From Arcticibacter pallidicorallinus (GTDB lineage: Bacteria; Bacteroidota; Bacteroidia; Sphingobacteriales; Sphingobacteriaceae), in NCBI RefSeq assembly GCF_003002875.1, contig NZ_PVTH01000005.1, forward strand, positions 310,001 through 374,000: DNA of 64,000 bases. The letters run 5' to 3'. The notes under the pieces are model-generated. The model was not told the origin of the DNA. It made no database searches and was given only the letters and a program-made list of their open reading frames with translations. Shown here one piece after another: positions 5,959 through 17,480 of this stretch (positions are counted from its first letter, which is position 1; every line of letters begins with the position of its first letter). Position numbers and translations under genes: made by a program.

Positions 5959-6065
5959 TCTGAACAGGATAGAATCATCCACTTCATATTACTGTAAAAC
6001 CGCACAAACAGATCTGCTGTTCACATTGATCGAACACAGTATGATAAAAATCATAATATTTGTAT

Positions 6066-7016
6066 ATGCGTGATATAACCAGCAAGCAAATTACACTCCG
6101 GTCCGCAAGGGCAATATCAGTTATATTCTGTTCTGCAGATACGATCAGCCTTATTAAAAATGAGCAGTTACCTAAGGGTAACCTTTTTGATGTAGCCCGG
6201 GCAGCTGGATTTATTGGAGCGAAACTAACGCCTCAGTTGCTGCCACATTGCCATCCCGTAGGTATAGACGGTATGGATATACAGTTCAGCTTTCTCTCGG
6301 AAGAAACGCACGCTGAGTTTTTTGAAAAGTCGGCATTTGAAAAAAATGGTATCGTCATCCTCGGTGAAGCAAAGTCGATAGGCCGGACAGGCATTGAAAT
6401 GGAGATGCTTACAGCCGTTTCCGTGGCAGCCCTGGAAATTTACGACATGCTCAAGCCGGTGGACACCATGCTGGAAATAGGCCATATCAAGCTGTTAAAG
6501 AAGACCGGTGGCAAGAGTGACCGTAAGAAATATTTCTCCAGCTCACCTACTTGCGCCATACTGGTATGTTCAGATTCGACTGCCGAAGGTAAACGTGAGG
6601 ATAAAAGCGGCAAGCTCATCCGACAGATGCTGGAAGATATCAGCGCAAGCGTGGTCGATTATAAGATCGTCGCCGATCAGAAAGATCAGATTCAGGAACA
6701 GATAAAAAAGTGGGTAGCTGACGACGTACATTTCGTGTTTACGACTGGCGGCACGGGACTCGGTCCGCGCGACAACACCGTCGAAGCTGTTAGCGAGATG
6801 CTCGAACGTGATGCCGACGGTATCACGGAAGCGATTCGAAACTACGGACAGATGCGTACTCCCCTGGCAATGATGAGTCGCGCCGTTGCCGGTTCAATCG
6901 CACAAACCCTCGTGGTTACCCTCCCTGGCAGCAGTGCAGGAGCGAAAGAATCGATGGAAGCGATCTTGCCTGCCATTTTCCATGCCCGAAAGATGATGAA
7001 AGGCGGAGGACATTAG
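6066..7016 (+). CDS. moaCB: Bifunctional molybdenum cofactor protein MoaC/MoaB
   Basis: A fusion of two Moco enzymes. Residues about 1-155 are MoaC, which with MoaA turns GTP into cyclic pyranopterin monophosphate; the catalytic signatures are LLPHCHPVGID and TGIEMEMLTAVSVAALEIYD followed by the conserved MLKPVD. Residues about 160-316 are a MoaB/MogA domain that adenylylates molybdopterin, with the nucleotide-binding stretch FTTGGTGLGPRDNT. The fusion is known in Bacteroidetes and puts an early and a late step on one chain. The ATG at 6066 is preferred over a TTG at 6060. The gene starts a two-gene operon with moeA (2-base gap). Confidence 0.93.
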   Translation: MRDITSKQITLRSARAISVIFCSADTISLIKNEQLPKGNLFDVARAAGFIGAKLTPQLLPHCHPVGIDGMDIQFSFLSEETHAEFFEKSAFEKNGIVILGEAKSIGRTGIEMEMLTAVSVAALEIYDMLKPVDTMLEIGHIKLLKKTGGKSDRKKYFSSSPTCAILVCSDSTAEGKREDKSGKLIRQMLEDISASVVDYKIVADQKDQIQEQIKKWVADDVHFVFTTGGTGLGPRDNTVEAVSEMLERDADGITEAIRNYGQMRTPLAMMSRAVAGSIAQTLVVTLPGSSAGAKESMEAILPAIFHARKMMKGGGH

Positions 7017-7018
7017 GA

Positions 7019-8212
7019 ATGCAAAGTCTTGACAATGCCCTTAGCCTCATTTCGTCACTGGTAAAAGGTTTCGCCCATGAATTCGTAGCGCTGGAAGAGG
7101 CTGACGGCAGAATCCTGTCAAAGGATATCACCGCAGACCGGAATTACCCACCCTTCAACCGGGCAGCAATGGATGGCTACGCCATTATGCAAAGCGACTG
7201 GAAGAAAGGCATTCGAAAATATAAAGTTGCAGAAACTATTTTGGCCGGTCAGGCTTCGCAGACTCAGATTAGCTCAGGATATTGTTATAAGATCATGACG
7301 GGAGCAGCAACTCCTCCGGTAGCAGACGTCATTATCCGAAGAGAAGACGCAAATGAACTGGACCAGGAAGTTGAGCTGCGAGCAGATGATCTAAGGATCT
7401 ATCAAAACATTTCGAGAGAAGGCGAAGACACTAAAAAAGGTGATTTACTTGTGAAGGCTCCGGTACGCTGTAGTTCGCAGATAATCAGCCTGCTTGCCGC
7501 TACAGGAAACCATCTGGTGTCCGTTTATGCCTTACCCTCTGTCTCCGTAATTACCACAGGTGATGAGGTCGTCCCCCTTCCTGCTGAAGTGACAGCATTT
7601 CAGATACGCAACAGCAATCAATTCCTGCTGAAATCCTTACTAAAGAAGTGGCAAATCTCAGCCTGGTTCTCGCGTCATGTCGCCGATGAAATTAATTCTT
7701 TGACAGAAGCACTCTCCCAGGCCATCACATCTGATATAACGATTATAAATGGTGGTGTATCTGCGGGAGACGCAGACTATGTGCCGGCAATATTAAAAAG
7801 TCTGGGAGTAAGGGAAATCTTTCATAAGGTCGCCATTCGTCCCGGCAAGCCGTTATGGGTAGGACAAACGTCCGAGGGTAAAGTAGTCTTTGCTTTACCG
7901 GGAAATCCCCTCTCCTGCCTTACGACCTTCAGCATCTTCGTGGAGTCATTTCTCTTCAAAAGCATGGGTTTTGAAAGCAGGCCGTTGTACAAGCTGCCCA
8001 TACTTCAGGATCGCTCCAAAAAACACCCGCTAACAGAATTCTTTCCTGTAAGCCTTGATCCTAAAACCGGGGGCCTTCAGATTTTACCGTTTAATGGCTC
8101 GGGCGATATTACGGCAGGTCTCTTCGCGGATGGTCTCGCAGTGCAGCCAGATGATTGCCCATCGCTACTCAACGGAGATTTAGTCGCTTTCTATCCTTTT
8201 CGAAGCCTTTAA
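7019..8212 (+). CDS. moeA: Molybdopterin molybdotransferase MoeA
   Basis: A 397-residue MoeA, the enzyme that inserts molybdate into adenylylated molybdopterin to finish Moco. Length and domain order fit the family: the N-terminal MoeA domain with RAAMDGYAIM, the central MoaB/MogA-like domain with VITTGDEV and INGGVSAGDADYV, then RPGKPLWVG and ALPGNPLSC of the active site, and the C-terminal beta-barrel domain. It begins 2 bases after moaCB, so the two are probably translationally coupled. The product serves the nitrate reductase encoded just downstream. Confidence 0.94.
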   Translation: MQSLDNALSLISSLVKGFAHEFVALEEADGRILSKDITADRNYPPFNRAAMDGYAIMQSDWKKGIRKYKVAETILAGQASQTQISSGYCYKIMTGAATPPVADVIIRREDANELDQEVELRADDLRIYQNISREGEDTKKGDLLVKAPVRCSSQIISLLAATGNHLVSVYALPSVSVITTGDEVVPLPAEVTAFQIRNSNQFLLKSLLKKWQISAWFSRHVADEINSLTEALSQAITSDITIINGGVSAGDADYVPAILKSLGVREIFHKVAIRPGKPLWVGQTSEGKVVFALPGNPLSCLTTFSIFVESFLFKSMGFESRPLYKLPILQDRSKKHPLTEFFPVSLDPKTGGLQILPFNGSGDITAGLFADGLAVQPDDCPSLLNGDLVAFYPFRSL

Positions 8213-8872: not shown

Positions 8873-10180
8873 ATGGCAGATAACCTAACACCTCTACAAC
8901 ATCTAAACATCTTCAAGACCCGGGGCGTTCAGATGAGAACTTTTCATATCACCTGGCTCACCTTTTTCTTTTGCTTCTTTGGTTGGTTTGGAGTAGCTCC
9001 TTTGATGCCTTTGATTAGAGAGCAATTGCATCTAAGTAAGGACCAGATCGGAAATATTATCATCGCTTCCGTTTCTGCCACGATCGTCGCCAGATTAATT
9101 ATTGGCAAGTTGTGCGATACCCTCGGCCCCCGCTTATCCTACACGATACTACTTGCGGTTGGCTCCATCCCGGTAATGTGTATTGGCCTGGCCAACAGTT
9201 ATGAAAGCTTTCTGATATTCAGATTTGTGATTGGGATTATCGGAGCGTCATTCGTCATCACTCAGTTCCACACATCCATGATGTTCGCGCCTAAAATCGT
9301 CGGAACGGCAAACGCTGTTACCGGAGGCTGGGGAAATCTTGGAGGCGGTGTTACGAACCTCGTTATGCCACTGATTGCTGCCGGCTTTGCAGGGCTGGGC
9401 TTTGTCAGTCAGGCCGACTCCTGGCGACTGGCTATGGTAGTTCCGGGCGTCATCTTATTAATCATGGCTTTTGTCTACTATAAATATACAAAGGATACTC
9501 CCGCCGGAAATTTCAAGGACATCGAACGAACGGCCGGAGTTAGCAAAAAAGGAACGTTTTTAATAGCACTGAAAGATTATCGTACATGGGTGCTCGCATT
9601 GGCTTACGCAGCGTGTTTCGGCATAGAAATAACAGTAGACAATGTAGCAGCTACGTACTTCACCGACAAGTTCGGCGCCTCCATGATTATGGCCGGGGCA
9701 ATGGCGGGCATATTCGGTGGCATGAACATCTTTGCGCGCGCGCTTGGCGGCTATGTAAGCGACAAGGTTGGCGAGAGTTATGGCTTAAGAGGAAAAGGTT
9801 TGTTACTTGGAGGTCTGCTACTGCTGGAAGGCATCGGAATAAGCCTTTTCGCTCAATCGCAAACGTTGGGAATGGCTATTCTGGCGATGCTGCTTTTTGC
9901 ATTATTTCTTAAAATGGCAAACGGCAGCACATACGGCATCGTGCCTTTTATAAATAAAGACGCTATCGGCACGGTCAGCGGAATAGTTGGCGCAGGTGGA
10001 AATCTTGGGGCAATGCTTGTTGGATTTCTTTTCAAGTCGGAGAGTCTTTCTTACGCAGACGCTTTTCATTATATCGGCATAGGTGTGGCCGTCATCGGAT
10101 TGCTGGTGTTCGTTACCAGGTTCAGAAACCCGCAAACAACAGCGCACGAAGTACCACATGTGAAGCTTCAGCAGGTTTAA
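8873..10180 (+). CDS. narK: Nitrate/nitrite transporter, NarK/NasA family (MFS)
   Basis: A 435-residue major facilitator protein with about twelve membrane segments. Family signatures are FGWFGVAPLMPLIREQL in the first helix region, the glycine-rich nitrate signature NAVTGGWGNLGGGVTN in helix 5, and its counterpart GTVSGIVGAGGNLGAM in the second half. These two glycine-rich stretches line the nitrate path in NarK-type carriers. It sits 14 bases before the nitrate reductase gene, so its role is nitrate uptake for assimilation, perhaps also nitrite exchange. The ATG lies at the end of an AT-rich leader. Confidence 0.93.
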   Translation: MADNLTPLQHLNIFKTRGVQMRTFHITWLTFFFCFFGWFGVAPLMPLIREQLHLSKDQIGNIIIASVSATIVARLIIGKLCDTLGPRLSYTILLAVGSIPVMCIGLANSYESFLIFRFVIGIIGASFVITQFHTSMMFAPKIVGTANAVTGGWGNLGGGVTNLVMPLIAAGFAGLGFVSQADSWRLAMVVPGVILLIMAFVYYKYTKDTPAGNFKDIERTAGVSKKGTFLIALKDYRTWVLALAYAACFGIEITVDNVAATYFTDKFGASMIMAGAMAGIFGGMNIFARALGGYVSDKVGESYGLRGKGLLLGGLLLLEGIGISLFAQSQTLGMAILAMLLFALFLKMANGSTYGIVPFINKDAIGTVSGIVGAGGNLGAMLVGFLFKSESLSYADAFHYIGIGVAVIGLLVFVTRFRNPQTTAHEVPHVKLQQV

Positions 10181-10194
10181 CCGTCAAAACAAAT

Positions 10195-13100
10195 ATGATG
10201 CAAAGTGAAAGAGGCAAAAGTTTTACCAGCACCTGCTGTTATTGCGGCGTGGGTTGCGGAGTAAAAGTTAGGGTTGAAGGAAATAATACCGTTTCTGTGG
10301 AAGGAGACAAAGAACATCCCGTCAACAAAGGCATGCTGTGCAGCAAGGGAATGAACCTGCAATACACGGTCAACGACAAGAGTGATCGCCTCCTTCATCC
10401 TCAAATGAGGTATAACAAAAATATGCCCCTGCAGAGGGTGAGCTGGGATGCTGCGCTGACCCGAACTGCAGCGGTTTTTAGTACCCTTATTGAAAAATAT
10501 GGACCTGACTCGGTCGCTTTTTATGCCTCCGGGCAGTGCCTCACAGAAGAATACTACGTCATCAATAAGCTCATAAAGGGATTTATTGGCAGCAATAATA
10601 TAGACACCAACTCGCGGCTCTGTATGAGCAGTGCTGTGACCGCCTACAAAATGGCGCTTGGTGAAGACAGTGTCCCGATCTGCTACGATGATATCGAGCT
10701 ATCGGACTGCCTTTTCGTGACGGGCGCTAATCCGGCCTGGTGCCACCCCATATTATGGCGGCGTATTGAAGCGCACAAAGCAGCGAATCCTCATATTAAG
10801 ATTATCATCGTTGACCCCAGGGCAACTGACAGTTGTTCCATCGCAGATCTGCACCTTCAAATCAATCCGGGAACGGATGTTACGCTTAACTATGCGATTG
10901 GAAGGGTCCTGATTGAAAGCGACAATATTGATATGGATTTTATCCGTCAGCATTCCGAAGGTTTTGACAGGTACCGCGAGCTTGTATTTGAAAAAACACT
11001 TGCTGAATCGGCTGCAATATGCGGAGTTGCAGAGAGCGATATTCTTCTCACAGCCACGTACATCGCATCGGCGAAGGGCTTCCTAACCATGTGGACGATG
11101 GGCTTGAACCAGAGTGCTATTGGGGTAAATAAAAATCTCAGCCTCATTAACCTCAACCTGATTACAGGGCATATTGGCAAACCCGGCTCAGGGCCCTTTT
11201 CGCTGACGGGGCAGCCCAATGCCATGGGTGGCCGGGAGGTTGGCGGTCTGGCTAACTTGCTACCCGCACACCGGGATCTCAACAACGGAGGTCACCGCGC
11301 CGAAGTGCAGAAATTCTGGGGAGGAACCGCTATATCCGACAAAGCAGGTTTAACAGCGACGGAAATGTTTGAAGCACTGCACGACGGGCGCCTGAAAGCC
11401 ATCTGGATCATTTGCACCAACCCCTTAACCAGTCTTCCGAACGCGCGATTTGTGGAGCAAGCGCTGAAGAAAGCCAAATATGTGGTTGTTCAGGACATCA
11501 GTGATCAGACTGAAAGCCTCGCCTATGCCGACGTCATTCTGCCGGCGGCAGCCTGGACGGAGAAAGAAGGCACGATGACGAACTCCGAAAGAAGAATCAG
11601 TCATCTTCAAAAATTAGTGGATCCGCCCGGCGAAGCTTTGCCTGACGCAGAAATCATTTGTCGCTTCGCCAGTAAAATGGGGTTTAAGGGGTTCGACTAT
11701 GCGTGCATGGAAGACATTTACAAGGAGCATACCCGCCTCACAAAACAAACGAACCTGAACATCGACGGACTCAGCTATTCGCTGATAGACGAACATAAAA
11801 CGATTCAGTGGCCTTTCAACAAAAAGAGTAATACCGGTACTGCCCGCCTGTTCGGCAATAAGCTCTTCTATACGCCCTCCCGGAAAGCGATTATTCATAG
11901 TCCACCTGACCACTTAAGCAGCGAAATGCCCGACACGGAATACCCTTTGATCCTGACTACGGGCAGGGTTCGCGATCACTGGCACACGATGACCAAGACA
12001 GGCAAGGTAAGCAAGCTGAAGCAGCACACGAAAGACGCTTACCTGGAAATACATCCTGCGGATGCGCTGGAGCTTGGCATCGAAAACGGACAAGTAAGCG
12101 TCGTCAGATCCCGTCGCGGAGAAGTTCAGGTTAAAGCGCGAATATCAACAGCGATGAAGCGGGGTGTGGTATTCCTGCCCATGCACTGGGGTAAAATACT
12201 TGGGAATGATCTCAACCGGACGAATAATATCACCAGCACGCTGATAGACCCTATATCTAAGGAACCGGACTTCAAATATTGTGCGGTGCGCGTAGAAAAA
12301 TGGAGCAAAGCACCTCAACGAATTGTCATCATTGGTGCAGGTGCAGGCGCCTTTGGCTTTGTAAAATCGCATCGCCAGATAAACAAAAACGATCATATTA
12401 CCGTGTTCAGCAAGGAAGATTCTCCTTTCTATAACCGCGTAATGCTGCCTGACTACATCAGTGGCGAACAGCGCTGGGAACAGCTCGTAAAAATGACAGA
12501 CGAGGAAGAACCGGAGTACAATATCCGTTTGCTAAGAGGTGTTAGTGTGGAGTATATCAATCGGGAGGCCAAATACGTCACCGATTCCAGAGGAAATAAA
12601 ACCCCTTACGATGTACTGATTATGGCAACAGGGAGCCGTGCGACTCTGCCCCGGCATGTACCTTCATTGCCAGGCATCTTCAGCATGAGGAACCGAACTG
12701 ATGCCGATAGCTTTAAGAAATACCTGCCGGCAAAGGCTCATGTGGTCATCGTTGGCGGTGGACTTCTGGGTTTGGAAATGGCAGCGTCCCTGCGTGAAAT
12801 TGGTGTGGATATTACTATTGTGCAGCGTGTCTCCCGCTTCTTAAACAGACAACTCGATCCTCTGGGTAGTCAGCTTTTACACGAAGAGATTACTGAGCAG
12901 GGATGCGATATTTTTTATAATGACGAGGTGCAGGTCTACTATGGGCGGTCAAAACTAACCGGCATTGGATTAAAAAGTGGCAGAAAGATCAATTGCGATG
13001 CGATGATTATCGCCATTGGTACCACGCCGAACATCGAGCTGGCGAGAAGCTGCGGTCTGAACTGCAAACGCGGTGTCATTGTAAACGAGCGCCTGCAGAC

Positions 13101-13707
13101 CAGCGATCCGGATATTTTTGCGATTGGCGAGATCGCCGAGTTCAAGGGCATCCTCTACGGCATAACAGCTGCAGCAGAACAGCAGGCAGAAGTGGTATCC
13201 GGATATCTGAACGGTGATATAGGCAGCTTTTACAAGGGGAGCATATTCATGAATATTATCAAAATTCATGGTTTCGATCTATGCAGCATCGGTATGCCTG
13301 AGTGTCCGGATGACCCCCAATATGAAGAGATTGTATTCATCGACAAAGCGAAACGCTATTATAAAAAATGCATCGTTCATCAGGACCGGCTTGTCGGAAC
13401 GATTCTGATAGGTGATAAAAGCGAATTCCAGGAATTCAGAGAACTTATCGCCAATCAAACAGAACTCAGTGAAAAACGCCTGACGCTGTTACGGAGCGGC
13501 AAAACCTCGGAGCGTGTTCTCGGAAAACTGATATGCAGCTGCAACAACGTAGGCAGCGGTAACATCACCAAACAGATGGACGCGGGTTGCATCGATTTCG
13601 GAGAACTTTGCTCCCTTACGGGTGCGGGTATGGGTTGCGGATCCTGCAGACCTGAAGTAAAACGCATTCTTGAACAGCTGAGAACGGAAGAAACCATGGC
13701 CTCTTAA
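10195..13707 (+). CDS. Assimilatory nitrate reductase fused to an NAD(P)H-FAD oxidoreductase and BFD domain
   Basis: A 1170-residue single-chain enzyme. Residues 1 to about 700 form a Mo-bis-MGD catalytic subunit of the NasA/NapA type: an N-terminal [4Fe-4S] site in CCYCGVGCGV completed by MLCSKG, the Mo-ligand cysteine in SRLCMSSAV, and the C-terminal molydopterin dinucleotide domain (LILTTGRVRDHWHTMT). Residues about 703-1030 form a Rossmann flavoprotein like NasB or the N-terminal part of NirB, with VVIVGGGLLGLEMAASL binding NAD(P)H. Residues about 1115-1160 are a BFD-like [2Fe-2S] domain (ICSCNN and MGCGSC). Electrons would pass from NAD(P)H through FAD and the clusters to Mo. It is cytoplasmic, with no Tat signal. 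Co-transcribed with narK and the rubredoxin gene. Confidence 0.9.
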   Translation: MMQSERGKSFTSTCCYCGVGCGVKVRVEGNNTVSVEGDKEHPVNKGMLCSKGMNLQYTVNDKSDRLLHPQMRYNKNMPLQRVSWDAALTRTAAVFSTLIEKYGPDSVAFYASGQCLTEEYYVINKLIKGFIGSNNIDTNSRLCMSSAVTAYKMALGEDSVPICYDDIELSDCLFVTGANPAWCHPILWRRIEAHKAANPHIKIIIVDPRATDSCSIADLHLQINPGTDVTLNYAIGRVLIESDNIDMDFIRQHSEGFDRYRELVFEKTLAESAAICGVAESDILLTATYIASAKGFLTMWTMGLNQSAIGVNKNLSLINLNLITGHIGKPGSGPFSLTGQPNAMGGREVGGLANLLPAHRDLNNGGHRAEVQKFWGGTAISDKAGLTATEMFEALHDGRLKAIWIICTNPLTSLPNARFVEQALKKAKYVVVQDISDQTESLAYADVILPAAAWTEKEGTMTNSERRISHLQKLVDPPGEALPDAEIICRFASKMGFKGFDYACMEDIYKEHTRLTKQTNLNIDGLSYSLIDEHKTIQWPFNKKSNTGTARLFGNKLFYTPSRKAIIHSPPDHLSSEMPDTEYPLILTTGRVRDHWHTMTKTGKVSKLKQHTKDAYLEIHPADALELGIENGQVSVVRSRRGEVQVKARISTAMKRGVVFLPMHWGKILGNDLNRTNNITSTLIDPISKEPDFKYCAVRVEKWSKAPQRIVIIGAGAGAFGFVKSHRQINKNDHITVFSKEDSPFYNRVMLPDYISGEQRWEQLVKMTDEEEPEYNIRLLRGVSVEYINREAKYVTDSRGNKTPYDVLIMATGSRATLPRHVPSLPGIFSMRNRTDADSFKKYLPAKAHVVIVGGGLLGLEMAASLREIGVDITIVQRVSRFLNRQLDPLGSQLLHEEITEQGCDIFYNDEVQVYYGRSKLTGIGLKSGRKINCDAMIIAIGTTPNIELARSCGLNCKRGVIVNERLQTSDPDIFAIGEIAEFKGILYGITAAAEQQAEVVSGYLNGDIGSFYKGSIFMNIIKIHGFDLCSIGMPECPDDPQYEEIVFIDKAKRYYKKCIVHQDRLVGTILIGDKSEFQEFRELIANQTELSEKRLTLLRSGKTSERVLGKLICSCNNVGSGNITKQMDAGCIDFGELCSLTGAGMGCGSCRPEVKRILEQLRTEETMAS

Positions 13708-13717
13708 TATCGTATTT

Positions 13718-15184
13718 ATGAGCAGAGTAAACATCAAGATAAACCTCCCGGGGGGAATTGTATCGACCGGAGACCTTCAAAATATTCTTCGGGGAGCCGA
13801 ATCGGCTGGCGCCTCGTCTGTATCCTTCGGTAACAGACAACAGTTGTATTTTGAAATCAACAATGAACAGCTGGAAGACCTTGAACATCAATTCTTTGTA
13901 TCTGATACTATTTACGAGGTTAACGCCAACCATTACCCCAATATCATCAGCTCTTATGTCAGCGAAGATCTATTCGATAACACAGGCTGGCTCCGTGAAG
14001 GTGTTTATAAAGACATTCTGGATTCCTTTTCCTTCACACCTACGCTGAAGATCAACCTGGTAGACAGCAGCCAAACCTTCGTTCCTTTTTTTTCCGGCAA
14101 CCTTAACTTCATTTCATCTGATATCAGTAATTACTGGTACTTGTATGTGCGTTTTCCGAAAACTAATGTCATCTACTGCTGGTCTACTCTTATCTATTCG
14201 GAAGACATTTGCGCAATGAGCAAGCGGGTCGAAAGTACAATTCTGGATCACCCCCGAGCTTTTTATGACACAGAGGCTGCAGATGGTCATTTTCTGGAGC
14301 ACAAAGTTTCTCCACCTGCCGGTTCGATCAGACAGTTACCCTCTTCTTCGTTGCAACTCCCATCCTTCCAAATTCCCTGCTATGAAGGCTTCGGACGGTA
14401 TGGGGATAAGTATTGGCTGGGCATTTACAGGAGAACTGAACTTTTTTCGATCGCTTTTCTGAAAGATCTCTGCGCGATGTGTATTCAATGCAGAATTGGC
14501 CAGATCTACACTACCCCCTGGAGGACTATATTGATAAAAGGTATATCCACTGCAGATATTGAATCATGGAGAATTCTGCTTGTCAAACATGGAATCGGTA
14601 CAAGGCATGCAGCCACTGAGCTTAACTGGCAAACGGAAGATCTGTGCGAGTCTGGTCTCAGTTTAAAACTCGCTCTGGCAAAACAATTCGACCAGGAAGA
14701 CCTGTCGACCGGCGATCTCTGTTTCGCCATTAAGATGAATCCGAAAGCCGGGCTTTTTGGTTCGGTCATCATAAGAAAAGTGCAGAATTCTGATCCGGGA
14801 GAATCAAGGCAAGGCTTTGACATACTGCATACGGCCGACTTTAATCCAAATTCCAGGAAATTAGTTCGGTACAGCACGGATGTTCCTGAAGATGATTTAG
14901 CCACGGTATTGACTGAGCTCTGCCATTATTATGCTGATCAAAGTACTTCAACTATTCATCCAAAAGATATAGACTCAGAAAATCTGATTCATCAGGAGAC
15001 TTTGGACACCGTCTTGCAATGTAAACTCTGCTTGACGATTTATGACGGGAAGACCGGCTATAAAGCGGAAGGTGTGAAATCAGGTATCTTGTTCGAGGAT
15101 TTGCCGGAGGATTTTTGTTGTTCGCTTTGTGAGGCCGACATATCGGCCTTTATCGAGATAGAGCGGCATAAGTTGTACGCATAA
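13718..15184 (+). CDS. Rubredoxin domain fused to a degenerate nitrite/sulfite reductase fold
   Basis: A 488-residue protein following the nitrate reductase by 10 bases. The last 55 residues are a rubredoxin: CKLC, then YDGKTGY, FEDLPEDF, and CSLC give the four iron-binding cysteines. The rest resembles a siroheme reductase with two ferredoxin-like halves, one near residues 1-65 (ending SFGNRQQLYFEI) and one near 230-300 (IYTTPWRTILIKGI, the equivalent of the TPWQ motif). The siroheme/[4Fe-4S] ligands C-x5-C and C-x3-C are absent; only the first cysteine of the pair may survive in LCESGLSLKLA. It therefore looks like an electron carrier or scaffold rather than a nitrite reductase. Function is not established. 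Confidence 0.75.
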   Translation: MSRVNIKINLPGGIVSTGDLQNILRGAESAGASSVSFGNRQQLYFEINNEQLEDLEHQFFVSDTIYEVNANHYPNIISSYVSEDLFDNTGWLREGVYKDILDSFSFTPTLKINLVDSSQTFVPFFSGNLNFISSDISNYWYLYVRFPKTNVIYCWSTLIYSEDICAMSKRVESTILDHPRAFYDTEAADGHFLEHKVSPPAGSIRQLPSSSLQLPSFQIPCYEGFGRYGDKYWLGIYRRTELFSIAFLKDLCAMCIQCRIGQIYTTPWRTILIKGISTADIESWRILLVKHGIGTRHAATELNWQTEDLCESGLSLKLALAKQFDQEDLSTGDLCFAIKMNPKAGLFGSVIIRKVQNSDPGESRQGFDILHTADFNPNSRKLVRYSTDVPEDDLATVLTELCHYYADQSTSTIHPKDIDSENLIHQETLDTVLQCKLCLTIYDGKTGYKAEGVKSGILFEDLPEDFCCSLCEADISAFIEIERHKLYA

Positions 15185-15242: not shown

Positions 15243-16202
15243 ATGACAGAGATCAAGGATAGTTTTAACAGAACCTTCAAGACACTTCGGGTAAGCTTGC
15301 TGAACACCTGTAACCTCGCTTGCGTGTACTGCTGTTTCGGTAATGAAGATAGTAAAGAAAATTATCGAAGCGGGAAGAACCAGGCGCTTCAGACTGATGA
15401 ATTGCTGAAGCTGATTGCAAAATTACATGAGCGCCTTGATTTGAGTGTTGTCCGACTTACAGGTGGAGAGCCACTGTTATATAAAGAGCTTCCTGAGCTC
15501 GTCAGAGGCATACGCAATCTGGGCATTAATAACCTGAAGCTGACTACAAACGGACTGCTTCTTGAAAAAATGGCTCCGGCACTGCAGGATGCCGGGATTA
15601 CTTCCATCAACGTTTCACTGGACGCCATCGACCCGGAAGTTTACCATCTGATGAGTCGCCGGCATGACCTCAGCCGAACGCTGAGAGGCATTGAAGCAGC
15701 ACAGCGACTGGGGATAGAGGTTAAAATCAACTCGGTTGTCATGAAAGGGTTGAACGATAGCCAGATCCTTCCCTTACTGAAGTACGCCTTCGAGAGAAGT
15801 ATCAGGATCAGATTCCTGGAAATCATGGCTATGGGCCACCTCCACGATACTGCCGATCAGCACTTTTTTTCGCAGGAAGAAATACTTGCCAGGATTGACA
15901 CAAATTACCCGGCCTTCCCTCTGCCTCGTAAACGTTCTTCTACTTCAAACTACTGGCAGACCCGGGACGGGAATATTTTCGGCATCGTAGCGAATGAGAG
16001 TGAGCCCTTTTGTTCAGATTGCAACCGCTTGCGTCTCGATGCTTATGGCAATATTTACGGCTGTCTGAGCAGCAATAATCCTATCAGTATTCTCGAGACT
16101 GAATCCCAGAATCTGGACAGCAGTCTCCGTGAGGCGCTTGCTCAAAAACAATCCATTAAATTTACAGGAAGCACACTTAGCATGCTACACATTGGGGGAT
16201 AG
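15243..16202 (+). CDS. moaA: GTP 3',8-cyclase MoaA
   Basis: A 319-residue radical SAM enzyme that starts Moco synthesis by converting GTP to 3',8-cyclo-GTP. The N-terminal SAM cluster is CNLACVYC. The second, C-terminal [4Fe-4S] cluster that binds GTP is CSDCNRLRLDAYGNIYGC. LTGGEPLLY follows the first cluster as expected, and the protein ends in the conserved Gly-Gly tail (LHIGG) needed for catalysis. It is slightly short at the N terminus compared with E. coli MoaA. It heads the moaA-moaD-moaE-mobA block downstream of the nitrate genes. Confidence 0.95.
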   Translation: MTEIKDSFNRTFKTLRVSLLNTCNLACVYCCFGNEDSKENYRSGKNQALQTDELLKLIAKLHERLDLSVVRLTGGEPLLYKELPELVRGIRNLGINNLKLTTNGLLLEKMAPALQDAGITSINVSLDAIDPEVYHLMSRRHDLSRTLRGIEAAQRLGIEVKINSVVMKGLNDSQILPLLKYAFERSIRIRFLEIMAMGHLHDTADQHFFSQEEILARIDTNYPAFPLPRKRSSTSNYWQTRDGNIFGIVANESEPFCSDCNRLRLDAYGNIYGCLSSNNPISILETESQNLDSSLREALAQKQSIKFTGSTLSMLHIGG

Positions 16203-16208
16203 TAACAC

Positions 16209-16442
16209 ATGAAAATAGAAGTCTTTGCCGCCTTGAAAAATTATTTCAGTAAGGAATTTGAAATAACAGAACAACTGGAAACGGTTGCTGATCTGAGGCA
16301 ACACCTGAAGAACATAAATCCATCATCTTCACAGCTCATTAATATGTGCCGTTTTGTAGTGCAGGAGGACCTGGTCACTGATGCTCACCCCCTGCTGTCC
16401 AACGATCATGTGGTTGTATTACCACCAAGCAGCGGAGGTTAG
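16209..16442 (+). CDS. moaD: Molybdopterin synthase sulfur carrier subunit MoaD
   Basis: A 77-residue ubiquitin-like protein ending in the diagnostic Gly-Gly (LPPSSGG), whose terminal glycine is thiocarboxylated to donate sulfur in molybdopterin synthase. It begins 6 bases after moaA and its stop codon lies 1 base before the moaE start, as expected for two subunits of one complex. The activating enzyme MoeB is not encoded in the window. Confidence 0.93.
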   Translation: MKIEVFAALKNYFSKEFEITEQLETVADLRQHLKNINPSSSQLINMCRFVVQEDLVTDAHPLLSNDHVVVLPPSSGG

Positions 16443-16443
16443 G

Positions 16444-16911
16444 ATGATCTATATAACAGAAGAACAGCTGGACCTGCCAGGATTGCTGGCTGCGTCTCAC
16501 CATCCTGGCGCAGGAGCGGTAGTTTTGTTCAGCGGCGAAGTGCGCGATAACAACGTAGGGAAGAAAGTGGATTACATCGAGTACGAATCATACGCTCCTA
16601 TGGCCTCCAAGATGATGAACCAGATTATGGAAGACGCCCGTCAGCGTTGGGACCTTCAGATTGCCGTTGCCCAGCACCGCATTGGTAAGGTGAAAATTTC
16701 AGAATCGGCGGTGGTCGTTATTACTGCCTCCGCGCACAGAAGCGAGGCTTATGCCAGCAACCGCTATATCATTGACCGTATAAAACATGAGGTTCCGATC
16801 TGGAAATGTGAGTATTTTGCAGATGGCACGAGCGTATGGGGAGGCAACTGCAATTGCCACACGGAAACGGGAGATCTGAACAAGCATATATACGAATCAG
16901 AGAACGGATGA
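16444..16911 (+). CDS. moaE: Molybdopterin synthase catalytic subunit MoaE
   Basis: A 155-residue MoaE, which with thiocarboxylated MoaD puts the two dithiolene sulfurs on cyclic pyranopterin monophosphate. Signatures are GAVVLFSGEVRDNN, LEYE-like IEYESYAPMA, HRIGKVKISE and the catalytic region HRSEAYASNRYIIDRIKHEVPIWK. The start at 16444 is chosen because it begins the family N terminus and avoids a long overlap with moaD. Its stop overlaps the mobA start. Confidence 0.94.
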   Translation: MIYITEEQLDLPGLLAASHHPGAGAVVLFSGEVRDNNVGKKVDYIEYESYAPMASKMMNQIMEDARQRWDLQIAVAQHRIGKVKISESAVVVITASAHRSEAYASNRYIIDRIKHEVPIWKCEYFADGTSVWGGNCNCHTETGDLNKHIYESENG

Positions 16912-17480
16912 TGCTGGGTGTAGTGCTCTGCGGAGGTGAAAGCAAGCGAATGGGGAGCGATAAAGGTTTGCTTCCAGCGGATGGTGAGTCTTGGGCGGAA
17001 CGAGCCGCCTCTAAGTTATCGAAGCTGAACATTCCGGTCGTGCTGTCGGTCAATGCGGCACAACTTGAGTCTTACGGTCCGGTTTTTGCCCCCTCTGAAC
17101 TGGTTGTTGATACGGTGGATGCAAGGGGACCGCTAAAGGGCTTACTTAGTGTTCACAAAGCTCATCCGGATAAAGATGTTCTGGTTCTTGCCTGCGACAT
17201 GCTTGATATTGACTTCAGTACGCTGCAAGTGTTGAAACAGGCTTACGAGACAACAGAAGGGGCTTTTGACTACTATGTTTATGAAAAGGATGAGTTTATC
17301 GAGCCACTCTGTGCGATCTACCCCGGGCGGACACTCCAGTCGCTGCACACGATACTTGTCTCGGGAGCTCTCCCATCCTTCTCCCTGCAGCGACTAATCC
17401 CCGGATCAAATTACAAAAGCATTGCGATACCAGATGATCAGAAATTCGCGAACTACAACGCGAACAATCCATTCGTCTGA
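16908..17480 (+). CDS. mobA: Molybdenum cofactor guanylyltransferase MobA
   Basis: A 190-residue nucleotidyltransferase that joins GMP to Mo-molybdopterin, giving the guanine dinucleotide form used by bis-MGD enzymes such as the nitrate reductase here. The N-terminal GTP-binding signature is LCGGESKRMGSDKG, followed by GPLKGLLS and the metal-binding VLACDMLDID. The start overlaps the moaE stop by four bases (a second ATG follows directly at 16911). The presence of mobA matches the bis-MGD requirement of the upstream reductase. It is the last gene of the island. Confidence 0.9.
   Translation: MMLGVVLCGGESKRMGSDKGLLPADGESWAERAASKLSKLNIPVVLSVNAAQLESYGPVFAPSELVVDTVDARGPLKGLLSVHKAHPDKDVLVLACDMLDIDFSTLQVLKQAYETTEGAFDYYVYEKDEFIEPLCAIYPGRTLQSLHTILVSGALPSFSLQRLIPGSNYKSIAIPDDQKFANYNANNPFV

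Follow-up and report, generated by a model that had tools for sequence, protein, structure and literature searches.

A predicted pseudo-siroheme reductase carrying a rubredoxin domain is encoded beside a nitrate reductase fusion in Bacteroidota

Background

Rubredoxin domains may be fused to another protein body. In the NorV/NorW system the body of NorV is flavodiiron, and its rubredoxin domain receives electrons from a NorW-type FAD protein. A different carrier is known from nitrate assimilation, where NasG is a Rieske-type ferredoxin. This small protein, encoded in the nas operon of Paracoccus denitrificans, has been proposed to carry electrons to both the nitrate and the nitrite reductase, and the flow of electrons to the two enzymes to prevent nitrite from accumulating (PMC4724949, PMC6618116). 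In the accessible text of the two papers NasG is a ferredoxin, and no pseudoenzyme body is described for it. Aquirufa has a nitrate assimilation operon in which one gene has been named as rubredoxin (PMC12528234), and a rubredoxin is found in the same table as nitrate genes in another Aquirufa paper (PMC10821818). The accessible text of either paper mentions neither a siroheme-reductase body nor a function for this gene; likewise, no description of either was found in a search of open-access full texts. In the accessible part of a further paper rubredoxin is mentioned under oxidative stress (PMC7500135).

The protein described here combines a rubredoxin with a body akin to siroheme nitrite and sulfite reductases, such as NirA, the sulfite reductase hemoprotein, and NirB, in which an FAD-BFD head is joined to the siroheme domain.

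The locus

The gene resides in a window of 64,000 nucleotides, the whole stretch of DNA analysed, which belongs to a genome of 4,116,409 bases in 23 contigs. A moaC-mog fusion, moeA, narK, a nitrate reductase fusion, the gene under study, moaA, moaE and mobA follow one another on the + strand (Table 1). Between the last base of the nitrate reductase ORF (13707) and the start of the next ORF (13718) there are just the 10 bases reported in the initial annotation. The FAD part of the fusion contains a Rubredoxin_C domain, and its C-terminus is a [2Fe-2S] BFD domain (Pfam, NCBIfam). The head of the fusion is similar to that of NirB, and its FAD module matches the NADH:flavorubredoxin reductase NorW (E 3.6e-50, below the family cut-off). 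FAD proteins of this kind reduce rubredoxin in NorVW.

Table 1. Features of the nitrate assimilation locus, in coordinates of the window
Feature	Position	Strand	Basis
MoaC-MoCF (Mog-like) fusion, single protein, molybdenum cofactor synthesis	6060..7016	+	PF01967 + PF00994
Presumed MoeA-like protein (molybdenum cofactor)	7019..8212	+	recognition of the translation
NarK-family nitrate/nitrite transporter	8873..10180	+	TIGR00886, 313.3 bits vs cut-off 311.7
Assimilatory nitrate reductase fusion, 1170 aa: NasA (Mo, [4Fe-4S]) + NirB/NorW-like FAD module + BFD [2Fe-2S]	10195..13707	+	Pfam, NCBIfam
Gene under study, 488 aa: predicted pseudo-siroheme reductase + C-terminal rubredoxin	13718..15184	+	ORF, ATG start
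First ferredoxin-like half domain, residues 6-56, including R40	13733..13885	+	PF03460; R40 in 132/133 relatives, one gap
Second ferredoxin-like half domain, which includes TPWR (roughly residues 231-296)	14408..14605	+	NirA-family HMM 231-296, E 0.0019, far below cut-off; secondary structure of the model
Conserved C252-x2-C255, in helix 245-257 of the second half domain	14471..14482	+	C252 in 131/133, C255 in 132/133
R296-H297...E301-L302-N303, where siroheme reductases have their first cluster loop	14603..14626	+	hhalign map, conservation
Rubredoxin domain, residues 433-478, Cys 435, 438, 468, 471	15014..15151	+	PF00301 E 2.5e-11; Foldseek rubredoxins TM 0.82-0.94 by target length
Presumed MoaA-like radical SAM protein (molybdenum cofactor)	15243..16202	+	recognition of the translation
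MoaE	16381..16911	+	PF02391 E 1.7e-36
Presumed MobA-like protein	16836..17480	+	recognition of the translation

Fold of the protein

The gene is no chance ORF, as 133 distinct relatives could be aligned (left from 162 ORF hits once those running off the end of a locus, and those duplicated in their last 200 residues, had been discarded). Besides the rubredoxin, the only Pfam domain found is NIR_SIR_ferr (E 4.6e-7, two stretches, the best at residues 6-56). Neither the catalytic NIR_SIR domain PF01077 nor a Rieske domain, the type present in NasG, was matched at E 1. The same holds for the family: in a scan of 24 aligned bodies at E 0.1, NIR_SIR_ferr was found in all, and PF01077 in none. The four NCBIfam matches are all below cut-off; two fall on the rubredoxin, and those of NirA and CobG on the second half domain.

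AlphaFold models were obtained with 21 sequences (pLDDT 84.6, pTM 0.70) and with 102 sequences (pLDDT 92.7, pTM 0.82; five models at 92.3-92.7). The predicted structure is mixed alpha/beta, with a linker of low confidence between body and rubredoxin (residues 414-428). When compared to the PDB with Foldseek, both models had siroheme nitrite/sulfite reductases (NirA, SiRHP, Fd-NiR) as their top 31 matches. The first model matches the siroheme reductases with TM 0.44-0.51 by query length and rmsd 13.9-16.9, the better one with E 2.8e-17 to 1.4e-13, TM 0.60-0.67 and rmsd 4.3-7.6; next in rank come rubredoxins, rubredoxin chimeras and the F420-dependent sulfite reductase. Alignments to NirA and sulfite reductase hemoproteins (1zj8, 2akj, 3b0m, 6c3m) extend over the whole body (447-504 columns), at 11-15 % identity. 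Profile-profile alignment with six NirA-type sequences also spans residues 1-433 (global E 9.8e-9; local E 1.1e-5, probability 82 %, 394 columns; single comparisons). The fold of the body was thus recognised by comparing structures and profiles, while a sequence search of the PDB with the body profile gave only repeated, weak stretches of RecA, each with E above 100, which were dismissed as chance matches.

The comparison with NirB and sulfite reductases suggested in the initial annotation therefore led to siroheme reductases, and not to an unrelated fold. The annotation had described the body as two ferredoxin-like half domains with a TPWR motif. Both the domains and the motif (TTPWR, residues 265-269; position 269 is mostly K in the family, K in 130 and R in 3 of 133 sequences) are present, and the fold extends to the entire siroheme-reductase body rather than to two halves alone. 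The CKLC and CSLC pairs of the C-terminal rubredoxin are indeed its four ligands.

A rubredoxin fused to another body, next to a NorW-like FAD module, brings to mind NorV, and a role in defence against nitric oxide or oxygen stress within a nitrate operon may be envisaged. According to the accessible text of one paper, NasC can make NO, and its expression in Bradyrhizobium goes together with that of an NO-detoxification system (PMC4724949). Such a role is nonetheless very improbable for a protein in which no Pfam domain other than those mentioned was detected. Its body differs from that of NorV in having a siroheme-reductase fold.

Loss of the siroheme-[4Fe-4S] ligands

Alignment with the NirA group, in which the exact placement of residues near gaps is uncertain, reveals two 11-residue gaps. 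One takes out the loop with the first cluster cysteine, and sets L302 at the position of the second; the other takes out the GCPHSC loop. Counting cysteines in residues 280-352, which is independent of the placing near gaps, none of 133 sequences has four (0 Cys in 25, 1 in 31, 2 in 64, 3 in 13), C310 (91/133) and C335 (85/133) being the commonest. The C-x5-C and C-x3-C ligands are indeed missing, as noticed in the initial annotation, and no relative has a full set of four cysteines in this region. Changes involve the anion site as well, if, as we assume, it is formed in siroheme reductases by NirA R187, K228 and the TTR Arg. R40 is found at the position of the TTR Arg and N75 at that of the RN Asn, but R187, which precedes the RN Asn, is replaced by P74, and K228, the Lys of PRK, by T109.

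Alignment and model concur in indicating that the body retains the overall NirA-type fold, while lacking both siroheme-[4Fe-4S]-binding loops. Judged by sequence, the protein is not a siroheme reductase, but a rubredoxin fused to a pseudo-siroheme reductase; the rubredoxin and the C252-x2-C255 pair are additions to the NirA scheme. One may argue that siroheme is still held without a [4Fe-4S] cluster, perhaps by H297, kept in 132 of the 133 relatives, and the siroheme-synthesis gene cobA resides in the Spirosoma cluster. This is scarcely credible: both cluster loops are missing, PF01077 is unmatched, and the siroheme requirement is accounted for by NirB, which every one of the 64 carriers in the family encodes.

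A derivation of the body from NirB has been set aside, as the profile match to NirB, which shares the siroheme-reductase half domain but keeps the cofactor domain, is weaker (local E 8e-4 over 141 columns) than that to the NirA group (1e-5 over 394 columns). This is a lean only, since no more than 6 NirA-type and 10 NirB sequences entered the comparison, and the 24-sequence alignment A2 matched NirA with a mere E 7.5e-5 (local, probability 62 %).

Association with the nitrate reductase

The gene has been identified in 64 of 201 genomes of the family, all of which host the nitrate reductase. The latter, sought by its Mo part (E 1e-100), was found in 66 genomes, in 65 of them at 61 % identity or more, with open frames of 916-1249 aa, and in G052 at only 36 % identity. 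Only one family genome, G132, has the nitrate reductase and lacks the gene; its contig, 3,188 bases long, terminates about 11 bases after the stop of the fusion, and does not include the place where the gene is expected. In a sample of 395 genomes of the phylum, the gene was found in 29 (E below 1e-100; 84 genomes matched, and the 55 matching at the rubredoxin end were dropped), the fusion in 33 (E below 1e-200, open frame of at least 1169 aa), both in 28. Conservation of the pair in Bacteroidota, which the initial annotation proposed to check, thus extends to 64/64 carriers in the family and 28/29 in the phylum, G322 being the sole carrier in which no fusion was found.

Of 110 places in 107 stretches, 106 have the fusion as immediate upstream neighbour on the same strand; with loci counted twice removed, the figure is 100 of 104. 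The distance is 60 bases or less at 76 of the 106 places, 61-300 at 22, and larger at 8. The exceptions are three paralogues lacking the rubredoxin, and L116, whose genome (taken to be G122) has the nitrate reductase on another contig. Being encoded with, and co-occurring with, an assimilatory nitrate reductase, the protein may be an electron carrier with a NasG-like role, although it is made of a rubredoxin and a pseudoenzyme body.

Other genes were found close by in some loci. The nitrate reductase and the gene under study are separated by a Nitr_red_assoc gene (PF09655) in three of 20 loci (L047:10904-11401, L048:8557-9063, L050:8793-9320). TauE/SafE-family exporter genes, possibly involved in nitrite or sulfite export, follow the gene in L036 (10765-11493) and L045 (10666-11388), and ORFs of about 240 aa occupy the same position in other loci.

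Replacement by the rubredoxin of redox centres lost in NasA was also considered, and ruled out. Cys 14, 17, 21 and 49 of the fusion, assigned by motif to the [4Fe-4S] cluster, and Cys143, presumably the Mo ligand, are kept in 94/94 fusions, and the BFD cysteines 1114, 1116, 1148 and 1151 in 93-94 of 94. The chain NAD(P)H-FAD-[2Fe-2S]-[4Fe-4S]-Mo consequently looks complete, and the rubredoxin is plausibly an extra centre.

Five of the 33 fusion genomes of the phylum sample (G413, G207, G249, G350, G374) lack the gene, and no ORF in the 17-18 kb around their fusions matches its profile. All five loci encode a siroheme-reductase-like ORF of 590-675 aa within a few kilobases of the fusion. The ORF of G413 matches tobacco nitrite reductase (E 1.1e-76), that of G207 has both Pfam domains, and those of G249, G350 and G374 were judged by similarity to the siroheme reductase of the source genome. 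An FAD/NAD flavoprotein (PF00667, PF00175) is encoded in the four loci scanned. The same type of nitrate reductase thus stands with either NirA or a pseudo-NirA plus rubredoxin, and probably works without the latter, at least with NirA nearby. NirA loci are in this respect a natural comparison for pseudo-NirA loci. In the NasA tree, 36 rows with the gene fall on one side of a branch of weak support (61/66), and 5 without the gene on one side (95/85). The very long outgroup branch makes the tree silent on gain versus loss of the gene. Residue differences between NasA of fusions with and without the gene were set aside as evidence, the latter being only four, all on one side of the tree.

NirB is found in 76 of the 201 family genomes (in G003 by a partial match), and in the source genome is encoded away from this locus. 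Its presence in all carriers suggests that the protein under study is probably not a nitrite reductase. Twelve genomes, G132 among them, have NirB and lack the gene, which hence follows NasA rather than NirB.

Conserved residues and possible roles

Rubredoxin ligands are highly conserved. All four cysteines are present in 129 of 133 relatives, and wherever the gene immediately follows a nitrate reductase (106 places) it encodes both CxxC pairs, at 104 with normal spacing. In the remaining two, L162/L172 and L140/L175 of genomes G385 and G581, both pairs are kept, but the loop between them is much shorter, and these copies may not strictly depend on the iron site. The four copies without the pairs, the three paralogues and one in G322, do not lie directly downstream of a nitrate reductase as far as the assemblies show. 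The copy of G322 (L142:63-1556) is at the start of a contig, and no nitrate reductase fusion was found in that genome. The paralogues are body-only second copies (L044:1239-2483, L046:17820-19064, L049:1462-2724). An alginate-export-like porin gene comes next in L044 and L049, and L046 shows the same gene order; in both L044 and L046 nirB is no more than about 10 kb away. In L044 a response regulator and a kinase with a PilJ domain are encoded between the paralogue and nirB.

The favoured reading is that the pseudo-NirA is a docking and electron-transfer subunit of the adjacent nitrate reductase, which we consider probable. The initial annotation had proposed that an enzyme fold was turned into an electron carrier, a docking module or a nitrite channel. 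Fold, ligand loss, rubredoxin tail and the tight link to the nitrate reductase agree with such a conversion; the data lean to a combination of carrier and docking module, because every copy beside a nitrate reductase has the rubredoxin pairs, and only copies elsewhere lack them. The siroheme-reductase-like body would dock on the nitrate reductase at its FAD/[2Fe-2S] head, a kind of module which in NirB is joined to a siroheme domain. The docked body would hold the rubredoxin so that electrons of the NorW-like FAD reach the molybdenum part through it. Alternatively, the rubredoxin may share electrons with the separate NirB nitrite reductase, as proposed for NasG in Paracoccus, or the body may allow the head to supply NirB too. 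Some data fit a docking carrier less well. The fusion keeps its own redox cysteines, and an extra carrier is not obviously needed; five fusion genomes do without the gene, and the rubredoxin loop is much shortened in two loci.

The body itself is a further difficulty, since its many invariant polar residues suggest that it does more than dock. R40, N75, K111, N113, R296, H297, E301 and N303 are each kept in 100 or more of the 102 sequences, a set which suggests a putative binding site. Hence, the vacated siroheme cavity could bind a ligand, as an example nitrite, to be channelled or sensed, or a different cofactor, the role of the rubredoxin being secondary. The three paralogues, which retain body and CxxC without rubredoxin, would suit a ligand-binding role, as would the vicinity of two of them to nirB, and of one also to the PilJ-domain kinase gene; the change of two basic residues into P74 and T109 would not, and we hold this role unlikely. 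A wider scenario, somewhat speculative and in our opinion rather doubtful, is that a siroheme nitrite reductase once located beside NasA became a dedicated nitrate reductase subunit, whose emptied, polar cavity binds nitrite or passes it between NasA and NirB, while rubredoxin and CxxC couple the electron supply of both enzymes. If so, toxic nitrite would be kept from building up.

The C252-x2-C255 pair, which had escaped the initial annotation, is kept also in the three rubredoxin-less paralogues, and one of the two residues is substituted in 3 of 102 sequences. This conserved CxxC in the body, and the location of the gene among molybdenum-cofactor genes, may hint at a factor assisting assembly or maturation of the nitrate reductase, by insertion of the molybdenum cofactor or of iron-sulfur clusters, and acting outside the working electron chain. 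NarJ/TorD chaperones have an all-helical fold. In contrast, the model is mixed alpha/beta, siroheme reductases and rubredoxins are its top matches, and no NarJ-type chaperone is found among the 50 best matches listed. Precedents exist in that, as stated in the accessible text of the respective papers, the accumulation of photosystem II depends on a rubredoxin (PMC3772215), and Paracoccus NasC needs the chaperone NarJ, encoded outside the nas cluster (PMC6618116). As five fusion loci dispense with the gene, we regard a maturation factor as possible, but not the likely solution.

Distribution

Relatives of the gene are encoded in 518 genome stretches. The best 80 of the 518 are all from Bacteroidota, as recognised from their names, the nearest named relative among them being from Arcticibacter (55 % identity). 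The search beyond Bacteroidota covered plasmids only, where 4 of 72,556 records match (organisms Hymenobacter, Spirosoma and Persicobacter). No relative was found in viral contigs with six peptide patterns. Copies in Spirosoma and Hymenobacter bear the NCBI product name 'rubredoxin', and the rubredoxin of the Aquirufa operon is plausibly the same gene. Given its frequency in Bacteroidota (64/201 genomes in the family, 29/395 in the phylum) under such a bare name, the nitrate assimilation route seems to include an unrecognised, nearly constant component. This looks like a metalloenzyme fold stripped of its cofactor loops, and retained as a partner protein.

Another molybdenum enzyme of the source genome, which shares 36 % identity with NasA, is encoded on contig C7 (L177:6591-8807). 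Beside it reside genes encoding a 4Fe-4S dicluster protein, a Rieske protein and a DUF6755 protein.
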